DNA from: a virus
IMG/VR virus record: IMGVR_UViG_3300009168_000062
Span: 1 to 43,425 of that record
Strand: one strand, 5' to 3'
DNA length: 43,425 nucleotides
Part shown: one piece after another, positions 5,664 to 13,460 of the stretch
Position numbering within the stretch: the stretch's first letter is position 1
Layout of the letters: every line of letters starts with the position of its first letter
Notes under the pieces: model-generated
Seen by the model: only the letters and a program-made list of their open reading frames with translations
The model's database searches: none
Told to the model about the DNA's origin: nothing
Position numbers and translations under genes: made by a program

Positions 5664-6444
5664 AGAAACTCGATGACCTCTTTTCGTCAGGGTTTGCGGG
5701 GGCGGCGGGGAAGGCTTGCATCCAGTCGCGTTTTATCAACTCAATGTCTTTATGGTATATCCAAGAAAACGAGGCGGATTTTTCGTCACGCATTGCCCAT
5801 TGAATAAAACGCTCGAGCGTCTGACCGCTTTCCTCTTTCTTGAGGATCCATTTGTACACGACCTGCGCCTTCGGTGTCTGGGGGAACTCGCCACGGCGCA
5901 GCCCGGTTTCCAGCTTTGCCGCAATGGTTTTGTAACCCTGCTCGAGTTTGATGTTTTCGTTATCCTCTTCCGTAAACTCAGGAGTCTTTCCGTGCTGTAG
6001 GTCCCACAGGGGATTACTAAACTTTTTTTTGCCCGAGGGGTGGTTAATCTCATGGTTAATTGATGGTTTAACTCTAGCGGCTGGAATCGTCTTGCTTTGA
6101 TGGCTAGAATCGTCGGATTCTAGTGGCTGGAATCCTAGCGGCTGGGATAGTTTGTCGAGGTTGACCGTGTAGTTATTGGTTCCTGCCTTGCTCTTGCCCT
6201 CGTATGTTGTGTACCCGTTTGTTCTTAGTGCGTTCAGAGCGTTGCAAACTGTCTGGCTGGACATACTGGTTTTCTTACATATGCGCTTCACGCCTATATA
6301 GGCACTTTCTCCATCGTCATTACAGTGATCCGAAAGAGCAAGTAGCACAAATTTCGCCGTACTGTCCGGTACGGTTTTTCCGTCGTCAGTTTTCAGTTCC
6401 GGCATATCGTATTCAAATACTAGAGACATGGTTCTGACACTCAT
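5656..6444 (-). CDS. Replication initiator with N-terminal winged helix
   Basis: 262 aa. Start set at ATG 6444, which overlaps the HNH stop (ATGA) and has GGAGG seven bases upstream. Residues about 25-90 form a helix-turn-helix domain of the kind in phage and plasmid replication initiators (TAKFVLLALSDHCNDDGESA, then VKRICKKTSMSSQTV). A polar linker (about 98-135) is encoded by the iteron-like repeats at 6041-6149. The C-terminal part (about 150-262) is helical and likely contacts helicase or primase. The layout (DNA-binding N-domain, origin repeats in the linker, helicase-contacting C-domain, helicase gene next) matches lambda O and similar initiators. Confidence 0.85.
   Translation of the reverse strand: MSVRTMSLVFEYDMPELKTDDGKTVPDSTAKFVLLALSDHCNDDGESAYIGVKRICKKTSMSSQTVCNALNALRTNGYTTYEGKSKAGTNNYTVNLDKLSQPLGFQPLESDDSSHQSKTIPAARVKPSINHEINHPSGKKKFSNPLWDLQHGKTPEFTEEDNENIKLEQGYKTIAAKLETGLRRGEFPQTPKAQVVYKWILKKEESGQTLERFIQWAMRDEKSASFSWIYHKDIELIKRDWMQAFPAAPANPDEKRSSSFYA
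6041..6149. other. Putative replication origin: iterons plus AT-rich repeats
   Basis: Four copies of a GGCTGGAATC core start at 6079, 6102 (GGCTAGAATC), 6125 and 6140 (GGCTGGGATA), three of them within CTAG(C/T)GGCTGG. Spacings are 23, 23 and 15 bases. Directly beside them lie three AT-rich repeats, TGGTTAAT at 6041 and 6053 and TGGTTTAA at 6064, and a run of eight T at 6023-6030. Iterons next to an AT-rich unwinding element inside the initiator gene is the lambda-type origin plan. Confidence 0.7.
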
Positions 6445-6722
6445 CTCCACCCCTCCAGCCCCATATCTTTGAGTTCGTCATCCGTTGGGTTGTATTTTCC
6501 CCGCTTGCTTTTGTTGTAGTCGCTGTGTTCCTTGATGTGGCATGCGTCGCAAACTGTTTTGAGGTTGTCAAGTGCATCCGCTCCGCTTTCGGTTCGCGGA
6601 ATCTTGTGGTGAGCTGTCAGCCTTTTGCTCGAGCCGCACCGCTGGCACTTATGACCATCACGACTGACGGCGAGGTCTCTAAGTTCTTTCCATTCATTTG
6701 TTGCGTAGTAATTCATGCTCAT
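6441..6722 (-). CDS. HNH endonuclease
   Basis: 93 aa. Zinc-binding CQRCG (about 26-30) and CDACH (about 58-62) flank the HNH core LTAHHKIPR (about 36-44), with a middle-Asn candidate in DALDNLKTV. Compact free-standing HNH nucleases like this nick or cut double-stranded DNA. ATG 6722 overlaps the primase stop (ATGA); a second ATG two codons later is an alternative start. Lying between primase and initiator it could act in replication or recombination, or be a homing-type passenger; a second HNH protein sits by the terminase. Confidence 0.9.
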   Translation of the reverse strand: MSMNYYATNEWKELRDLAVSRDGHKCQRCGSSKRLTAHHKIPRTESGADALDNLKTVCDACHIKEHSDYNKSKRGKYNPTDDELKDMGLEGWR

Positions 6723-7702
6723 GCTCTCCGCGCCATTCTGACTTGGCTCTTCAGCCAGTCGCCATCTAGGTTATTGGTTAGGATGTAATCGTCAATCTTT
6801 TCCGGCAGTCTCATCACTCTGACCTTGTTCCCGATCTCATGCGCCACACTTACAACATCGGCGTCTGGGTCCAGGCACAAAACCAAATCGTCACAGGCTG
6901 CCAACTGCTTGATAATTGATTCGCTTGGGTTCTTGCTTGGAAGTCCTACAATCTGTATGTTGGGATCTGCAAGTGTGATGTAAGTCACCATTGCCTTGAT
7001 TTCCCCCTCGACTGCAATCACGCGCCCAGAGACGGGCATATCTGGTGAAGCAGGGAACAGCACCGCAGGCAGTCCGCTTTTCTCGGGTCGGTATTTGCCA
7101 ATCTTGTCTGACGCATCGCCTAAAATCCTGTGCTTGACGTTCGACACTTCCCATGTTTCGGGCTCATAGATGGGGATTGTCAGGGTGGGGGATTGGTATT
7201 CCTGTCCTGCCCAAAAGATGTGAGACGGGTCATAGCCCAACTTAATCCAGTCCTGATACCAGCAAGGCACGCCGCGAGTTTCCCACATCACACGGGAGGC
7301 ATCGTCTAGGTTATCGTGATAACGAATCCATGATTGCACTTCGCGCAGTTCTGTAAGCGCCTGCTGTGCCTTCTGGATTTCCGCCTCGAGTCGTTTGGCG
7401 GCGTGTTCGGCATACTCTTGCTTGCGTTGGATTTCTGCCATCGGGTCAACGTCGTGAGCTTTGAGAATATCGCCAAGTGTCTGCTTGCGCCAGTATGCAA
7501 ACCAGTCGAAGCAGTCACCTTTTGCGCCGCATCCAAAACAGTAATATCCTTCCTCATACACATTGAACGATGGGGTTTTGTGATCCTGATGGAACGGGCA
7601 ATTCCAAGCCCATGATTTCCCGCTTCTGTGCTTGGGTTGTCCTAAAGCCTTTTCGACCTCGAGCCTACAATCGTACTGTGATCGCGCGCTCTTGATGTCC
7701 AT
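6719..7702 (-). CDS. DNA primase (CHC2 zinc finger and Toprim)
   Basis: 327 aa. N-terminal zinc-binding CPFHQDHKTPSFNV...YYCFGCGAKGD (about 35-67) is the CHC2-type template-recognition domain of DnaG primases. Toprim motifs follow: VIAVEGEIKAM (about 222-232) with the catalytic Glu, and CLDPDADV (about 275-282) with the Asp pair. It makes RNA primers for phage replication. Start set at ATG 7702 behind GAGGCAAAGGATAGC; the frame is open from a GTG at 7738, but that lies within the structured leader. First gene of the replication operon driven by 7867-7896. Confidence 0.92.
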   Translation of the reverse strand: MDIKSARSQYDCRLEVEKALGQPKHRSGKSWAWNCPFHQDHKTPSFNVYEEGYYCFGCGAKGDCFDWFAYWRKQTLGDILKAHDVDPMAEIQRKQEYAEHAAKRLEAEIQKAQQALTELREVQSWIRYHDNLDDASRVMWETRGVPCWYQDWIKLGYDPSHIFWAGQEYQSPTLTIPIYEPETWEVSNVKHRILGDASDKIGKYRPEKSGLPAVLFPASPDMPVSGRVIAVEGEIKAMVTYITLADPNIQIVGLPSKNPSESIIKQLAACDDLVLCLDPDADVVSVAHEIGNKVRVMRLPEKIDDYILTNNLDGDWLKSQVRMARRA

Positions 7703-7861
7703 GCTATCCTTTGCCTCCCTCGGCATAAAACGAGTCACCCAGTCTGCAAATCGCTTTGTTGTTCAGGCAAAGGGATTGGACTGGGTGACAGTGGGAATTA
7801 TATAATGAATTGTTGTTTTTAAACAGTTTCGCGATTTGCATCTTTTACCTTTGCCTGAACT
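7703..7861 (-). promoter_or_regulatory. Structured leader of the primase operon with interleaved complementary pairs
   Basis: In RNA order from the predicted start near 7860: A (7860-7848, GTTCAGGCAAAGG), B (7840-7831, TGCAAATCGC), C (7789-7779, GTCACCCAGTC), A' (7773-7761), B' (7754-7745), C' (7744-7734), then the ribosome binding region (7716-7708, AGGCAAAGG). A/A' (13 bp), B/B' (10 bp) and C/C' (11 bp) are perfect complements. The order A-B-C-A'-B'-C' makes them mutually exclusive or pseudoknotted. The ribosome binding region repeats nine bases of A, so A' can pair with either. A conformational translation switch, or a set of protein sites in DNA, are the two readings. Confidence 0.65.
7821..7830. 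promoter_or_regulatory. Possible repressor half-site in the primase leader
   Basis: AAACAGTTTC shares nine bases (AACAGTTTC) with the operator arm at 13011-13020 beside the repressor gene. A single short match in an AT-rich stretch, so it is tentative. Confidence 0.3.
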
Positions 7862-12950: not shown

Positions 12951-12969
12951 AAACTGTTGTTGATGTACC
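12951..12969. promoter_or_regulatory. Operator arm 1 near the early start site
   Basis: AAACTGTTGTTGATGTACC; its reverse complement recurs at 13001-13019 with 17 of 19 matches. It overlaps the predicted start of the early promoter. Confidence 0.65.
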
Positions 12970-12970
12970 G

Positions 12971-12999
12971 ATAATAAACCCGTTGCCAAAAAATGTCAA
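12971..12999 (-). promoter_or_regulatory. Early promoter (lambda PR-like position)
   Basis: Minus strand: perfect TTGACA (12999-12994), 17-base spacer, TATTAT (12976-12971). Both operator arms flank it directly. Confidence 0.8.
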
Positions 13000-13000
13000 G

Positions 13001-13019
13001 GGTACAGAAACAACAGTTT
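13001..13019. promoter_or_regulatory. Operator arm 2 upstream of the early -35
   Basis: Inverted copy of 12951-12969. Within it GAAACAACAGTTTC (13007-13020) is itself a palindrome (GAAAC/GTTTC), a plausible site for the repressor dimer. Confidence 0.65.
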
Positions 13020-13082
13020 CCCCATCGAAACAGCAACTGGTGTAAACTACCTGAAACCACGGAACACGAAAGGAAATTGATA

Positions 13083-13460
13083 ATGGAGAAGATTGCAAAC
13101 CGCATCTTGGAGGGGATGAAACAAAAAGGATATACCCCCGCGGACCTGTCACGCGCCGCGAAGGTATCAAAGTCCACAATATCGAAATTGCTCAACAACC
13201 AGCCACAAGTCGGCTCGCCGGAGTCGCTCGCCAAGATCGCCCGCGCGCTGGGGATACCGGAGCAGGAATTTTTTATGGACAAGGGGATCATGAAAGACAC
13301 GCCCGAACGCCGCCGTGACGCCGAACTGCTCAGGCTCGAAAAGCTACACAGCCGCCTACCCAAAGAAGATAGGGAGGTACTGTTTGACTTTGCGAATATG
13401 TTATTTTCGAGATCCCAGGGACAAAAAAGGAAACCGATCTATGAACGCGAGCACAGGTAA
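13083..13460 (+). CDS. Xre-family repressor (CI-like)
   Basis: 125 aa. Residues about 1-65 are an HTH_3/Xre domain: RILEGMKQKGYTPADLSRAA, then SKSTISKLLN as the recognition helix, and SLAKIARALGIPEQEFF. The C-terminal half is helical and charged (AELLRLEKLHSRLPKEDREV), with no S24 protease domain, so induction by RecA self-cleavage is not expected. Start set at ATG 13083 behind AAAGGAAA; the frame runs open upstream through the operators. Divergent from the early promoter; it likely maintains repression and autoregulates through 12951-13019. Confidence 0.85.
   Translation: MEKIANRILEGMKQKGYTPADLSRAAKVSKSTISKLLNNQPQVGSPESLAKIARALGIPEQEFFMDKGIMKDTPERRRDAELLRLEKLHSRLPKEDREVLFDFANMLFSRSQGQKRKPIYEREHR

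Follow-up and report, generated by a model that had tools for sequence, protein, structure and literature searches.

The primase operon of an uncultured phage is headed by a leader that we read, with a probability of about 0.6 and with its function deduced entirely from sequence, as an autoregulatory antisense-RNA control element of the C4/CI kind. The leader lies on the minus strand of the IMG/VR record IMGVR_UViG_3300009168_000062, whose 43,425 nucleotides were analyzed at full length and are referred to here as the window. In the direction of transcription, the leader includes a predicted promoter, a target formed by two arms (A and B), a hairpin in which the complements of both arms are enclosed by a stem (C-A'-B'-C'), and a proposed second target (A2) placed on the ribosome binding site (RBS) of the primase gene.

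The original prediction described three perfect complementary pairs in this leader, and both a reading of the minus strand and a repeat search reproduced every arm as well as the order A-B-C-A'-B'-C'. Arm A (7860-7848) pairs with A' (7773-7761) over 13 bp (GTTCAGGCAAAGG), B (7840-7831) with B' (7754-7745) over 10 bp (TGCAAATCGC), and C (7789-7779) with C' (7744-7734) over 11 bp (GTCACCCAGTC), all on the minus strand and with helix energies of −21.6, −14.1 and −20.2 kcal/mol, respectively. The nine-base copy of A that had been noted over the primase RBS is also present (A2, 7716-7708, minus strand), and A' complements it over these nine bases; the pairing energy of the whole hairpin loop with the primase RBS region was matched by 12% of the shuffles and is not exceptional. 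What had been overlooked is that A' and B' are both enclosed by the 11-bp C/C' stem. The resulting hairpin (7789-7734, minus strand; 56 nt), which we propose as a C4-like antisense unit, has a predicted fold of −24.4 kcal/mol that includes a basal stem and one inner stem. The crossing arrangement of the arms is not due to chance: a crossing pair of helices of at least 9 bp appeared in 3 of 20,000 dinucleotide shuffles of the leader, and the ABCABC triple in none of 20,000. In the whole window the leader is the sole place with crossing helices of at least 10 bp, and any such helices were observed in 1 of 60 whole-window shuffles.

Upstream of the arms, the sequence TTGACA-18-TATAAT (7896-7867, minus strand) agrees with the sigma-70 consensus at 12 of 12 positions and is the best consensus match in 15 kb; this promoter, identified by its consensus match alone, puts the predicted transcription start at, or a few bases from, the first base of A, in agreement with the earlier proposal that A lies at the 5' end of the message. 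On the plus strand, a promoter-like sequence (TGGACT-18-TATAAT, 10/12, positions 7777-7806) is directed through B and A, and an antisense transcript initiated there would bear the complements of both targets.

The leader also carries a short ORF (7841-7704, minus strand) of 45 codons (MQIAKLFKNNNSLYNSHCHPVQSLCLNNKAICRLGDSFYAEGGKG) that the original prediction had missed. Its Shine-Dalgarno sequence, AAAGG, is contained in A six bases ahead of the AUG (7841-7839), the AUG abuts B, which begins at its U, and the UAG stop codon (7706-7704) is located one base ahead of the primase AUG at 7702. By its codon score the leader ORF is comparable to real 45-codon stretches and exceeds the 98th percentile of those read off frame; approximately 10% of the shuffles are open over an equal extent, and no relative of the peptide was found in the phage collection or in PHROGs. 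The initiation region of the leader ORF is better read as the primary target of A' and B', the primase RBS not being the sole one.

The primase gene (6719-7702, minus strand) encodes a DnaG-type zinc ribbon, and the genes after it match HNH, a replication initiation protein and a DnaB-like helicase. The assigned start of the primase is not certain, since translation could also begin in frame at an ATG at 7726, where the layout C'-TTTT-ATG resembles that of L007 and L099, two of the elements described below. The record, which may be incomplete, yielded no integrase, serine recombinase or ParA, and so gives no indication that lysogenic immunity is involved; a role of the leader in lysogeny is possible given the presence of an XRE-type regulator. 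The ORF of this regulator (HTH_3; 12993-13460, plus strand) faces a near-consensus promoter (12999-12971, minus strand) that is flanked by an 11-bp inverted repeat (13019-13009/12961-12951), and the region 12951-13460 has the appearance of a repressor/operator switch acting on the early operon that runs leftward. An 18-kb contig, IMGVR_UViG_3300027743_000110, carries a terminase 100% identical to that of the window and apparently represents the same or a near-identical phage; the primase region of the window has no match within these 18 kb.

Close relatives of the leader or of the primase were not found, the best primases being 30-39% identical; named phages yielded no close relatives at the DNA or protein level, and a search for the exact arm pattern in IMG/VR gave no match. 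Nevertheless, eight further elements of the same layout, mostly with unrelated arms, were detected in what we count as six other uncultured phage contigs, at the loci L153, L098, L099, L007, L167, L006 (two elements) and L009; the hosts are unknown and most of the elements are single. The arm lengths given here were obtained with a scanner tuned to perfect helices. Additional contigs and thresholds were picked during the search, so the following enrichment figures are descriptive and do not amount to a test planned beforehand. In the 230 kb formed by the window and its relatives, two perfect helices that cross were detected at about seven distinct places, compared with 0.2 in shuffles. When the scan was anchored on promoters, the primase phages plus L167 yielded 7 matches (789 promoters, 0 expected), and the phages sharing only the terminase yielded 6 (2.0 expected). 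A tie between the leader and the terminase lineage was rejected, enrichment being slight or absent (2 matches against 1.0 expected in 716 kb of terminase relatives, besides the promoter-anchored figure just given), as was a tie to HNH genes as a rule, since an HNH gene 59% identical, in L163, lacks such a leader. Scanner matches in L004/L158, which lie inside an open frame, in L047, and in P1 (RepA iterons) were not adopted.

The order ABCABC is kept in six of the nine elements, window included: L153 (1940-1803, minus strand), L098 (16012-15868, minus strand), L007 (10750-10890), L099 (7782-7929) and L167 (17934-18078), B being of only 6 bp in L007 and L099. The two L006 elements (5824-5923 and 7062-7171) show the order ABCBAC, and the L009 element (6698-6797) is devoid of B. 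Promoter-like sequence was observed upstream of all eight, the hairpins range from 56 to 81 nt, and A starts at about +1 in the window and most relatives; in L009 it starts some 20 bases in. Regarding the genes behind the elements, the first L006 element precedes a primase gene, the second L006 element and that of L009 precede replication-type genes, and endonuclease-type genes follow the elements of L153, L098 and L099 (Pfam or domain match) and of L007 (assigned by zinc-ribbon/HNH-like sequence only). In the distant relatives that have the leader, the arm sequences are changed and the pairing is kept; several other primase relatives are without such a leader.

The position of the leader ORF relative to the arms also recurs. 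Its AUG is again at the edge of B in L153 and L167; in L098 there is an AUG at the end of A. As in the window, L167 has the Shine-Dalgarno sequence in A and a following RBS that repeats part of A; its leader ORF overlaps the start of the next gene. The L153 element has arms of 14, 8 and 11 bp and a B-C gap of 41 nt, equal to that of the window; given that 9% of shuffles were as good, homology between the two spacers was discarded and a common layout alone is claimed. Downstream of the L153 element (minus strand, after 1803) there is a terminator-like hairpin, AGCCGC..GCGGCT followed by ATTTCTGTTT, which sits within the leader ORF and ahead of an HNH gene.

Strict covariation is limited to the L007-L099-L098 group and the two L006 copies, and the case for the window relies on the improbability of its arms and on the shared layout. 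The leaders of L007, L099 and L098 are related in sequence (z from 5.5 to 13.3); between L007 and L099, 4 of the 14 A/A' pairs are changed on both sides with pairing kept, that is, in a compensatory manner. In the three of them C' carries or abuts the RBS, and an upstream hairpin (GGGCG..TTT with AAA..CGCCC) that competes for C shows compensated changes. In this group C can pair either upstream or with the RBS arm C', which may constitute a second, built-in switch. The predicted hairpins of L007 and L099 include a basal stem and two inner hairpins. A weaker ABCABC arrangement (score 59) heads a primase operon at 2164-2278 of L099 (about 5303-5417 of L005); a loose triple scan is at background level at scores of 56-63, so this leader is a candidate only. 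The phage that carries it is the one whose helicase is closest (47% identical), and the arrangement possibly includes a six-base kissing-loop pair, TGCCAG/CTGGCA.

The mechanism that we propose for the window would operate from a single transcript, in which the target (A,B) lies over the Shine-Dalgarno sequence and the start codon of the leader ORF, the C-A'-B'-C' stem-loop complements this target, and the further copy of A stands at the primase RBS. A'B' would pair with A-B, either in cis or, after processing into a small RNA, in trans, leaving the leader ORF untranslated. Coupling to the primase would then be lost, and A' would also be able to cover the primase RBS, so that the replication genes would be held down; the untranslated leader might in addition be terminated early, as in P4. 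On the other hand, ribosomes that have entered the leader ORF by the time A' is synthesized would traverse the hairpin and deliver translation to the primase. The UAG-C-AUG coupling and the A2 site would be the means to pass the shut-off of the leader ORF on to the primase. We infer the transcription start, the translation of the leader, the processing and trans action of the small RNA and the direction of control from the sequence features described above. The leader had been proposed to be a translation switch that controls replication; an expression switch at the head of the replication operon is well supported by the layout and by its recurrence with replaced arms, but an antisense hairpin embedded together with its targets is a better description of the three pairs than one three-helix fold, because P1 and P4 share this plan. 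Nothing was found in favour of the other suggested role, a protein-binding DNA element.

Several features count against the C4/CI-like reading: the window has no Rfam C4 match, its A'-B' order is unlike the b'-a' order of P1, the pairing energy of A2 is unexceptional, the genes that would point to lysogenic immunity were not found in the record, and arms of 13 and 10 bp could act purely in cis. The latter is the substance of the main rival, a minority possibility that deserves serious attention, in which the helices A/A', B/B' and C/C' are combined in every molecule into a single ABCABC pseudoknot with no trans-acting RNA involved; the start of the leader ORF would be closed with the primase RBS left free, or A' would be exchanged between A and A2. 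The helices are strong, and by our estimate their sum exceeds the best nested fold even with a large loop penalty. The predominance of the ABCABC order among the elements is also in line with such a pseudoknot; nonetheless, the order of the complements is flipped in L006 and P1, so a fixed single fold is not conserved, and L009 does without B. Folds of the ABCABC type are known but rare, with 51 RNAs against 1688 of the simple ABAB type in one survey (PMC3390330). To judge from the inverted order of L006 and P1, selection acts to keep the complement inside a stem. A related proposal, likewise a minority possibility, is that these leaders represent a separate and widespread class of phage early-operon leader RNA, not descended from C4, in which three long crossing helices would form a pseudotrefoil that gates the leader ORF and the next gene, its topology being conserved and its sequence not. 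Compared with HDV-like ribozymes, group I introns and type III toxin-antitoxin RNAs, the leader differs in helix order and in the absence of repeats, and these classes were set aside.

An action at the transcriptional level seems improbable. In this case competing hairpins or a contact with RNA polymerase, as in the put sites of phage HK022, would bring about attenuation or antitermination of the early operon. The location of the element at the extreme 5' end of early operons, the presence in several elements of T-rich stretches downstream of C', and the terminator-like hairpin that follows the L153 element are consistent with this idea, and P4 CI works by premature termination (PMC4825925); however, no convincing terminator was seen after C' in the window, and the arm sequences are not conserved, as a polymerase-contacting RNA would need. 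Still less probable is that the leader is primarily a stabilizer, which would protect the message from 5'-end-dependent decay by holding its initial bases in a 13-bp helix, with regulation being secondary. The start of A at about +1 in most elements would be explained in this way, although A begins farther in within L009, and B/B', C/C', the leader ORF and A2 would be left without explanation. Chance repeats in an AT-rich gap, for which nothing speaks beyond the absence of close relatives, are excluded in practice by the shuffles, none of which held the triple, and by the promoter-anchored scan, the layout being found again in other phages.

The C4/CI-like reading is based on the comparison with characterized systems. 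It had been stated that no phage leader with this arrangement was described; from the public sequences and their annotation, c4-icd-ant of P1 and CI-alpha of P4 share its plan, that is, an upstream target, a stem enclosing the complement, and a second target downstream, which in the window is a candidate. The window leader is not a member of Rfam C4: RF01695, which matches P1 at 68.8 bits and P4 at 74.9 bits, had no match in the window at the gathering threshold or at E values up to 10, nor in the L007 and L099 elements searched permissively, and the long basal stem enclosing two inner hairpins that characterizes the family has as its counterpart in the window a predicted fold with one inner stem. 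In contrast, the antisense hairpin and its target stand on one transcript from one predicted promoter, and the upstream targets are complementary to sequence inside the hairpin stem. We therefore call it a divergent C4/CI-like element by layout, and not a C4 RNA. C4 is recognized through a sequence-structure model and is listed for Proteobacteria and their phages (PMC2864571). The window leader and its eight look-alikes suggest that the C4-like design extends well beyond this sequence family to phages whose hosts are unknown, where the replacement of the arms would hide it from Rfam.

In the P1 record the promoter is located at 48195-48223, a1 at 48255-48261, b1 at 48269-48276, c4 at 48343-48419, a2 at 48423-48429 and b2 at 48452-48459, and icd begins at 48470, which gives the layout a1-b1-c4[b',a']-a2-b2-icd. 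The C4 RNA of P1/P7 (RF01695; upstream targets c4-a1b1, RF03163) resembles the window leader in having, on one transcript, a promoter, a pair of upstream targets and a complement-enclosing hairpin; it also has a downstream target at the RBS of the gene that follows, for which A2 is the candidate counterpart in the window. The ant message is blocked by C4 in the region of its RBS (PMC12197685). The systems differ in the length of the complements (13 and 10 bp in the window, 7 and 7-8 in P1), in their order, which by sequence is b'-a' inside the c4 stem, as in L006, and A'-B' in the window, in the number of downstream targets (one proposed in the window, two in P1), and in the gene controlled, primase in the window and icd-ant in P1. 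The P1 c4 hairpin, of 77 nt, falls in the range of the new elements.

The CI RNA of the satellite phage P4, whose seqB pairs with seqA and seqC and causes premature transcription termination, is an antisense hairpin with one complementary site upstream and one downstream (PMC4825925). The P4 C4 match at 8507-8420 includes the sequence complementary to both sites. As in the window, the hairpin leads an operon that includes a primase gene, alpha; in contrast with the window, control is exerted through termination, several genes separate the leader from alpha, and no sequence similarity was detected. In the isrK-orf45-anrP region of Gifsy-1, a leader ORF for a variable peptide lies over the antisense region and stops at the start of the next gene, to which its translational coupling has been proven, whereas the upstream small RNA activates translation in trans and the target is an antirepressor (PMC4825925).

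In the repZ system of IncI/IncB plasmids, a replication protein is controlled through a leader peptide, long-range pairing and coupled translation; in contrast to the window, activation there is due to a pseudoknot, and the antisense RNA is transcribed separately. The clearest new elements (window, L153 and L167) suggest as a rule that the upstream target corresponds to the site where a leader ORF is initiated. In P4, a 46-codon ORF (8637-8497) starts six bases after seqA. In P1, a 66-codon frame (48267-48467) ends just before icd, and the G of its AUG is the first base of the b1 site, for which the annotation says no more than putative; both frames are possible leader ORFs that lack an annotation.
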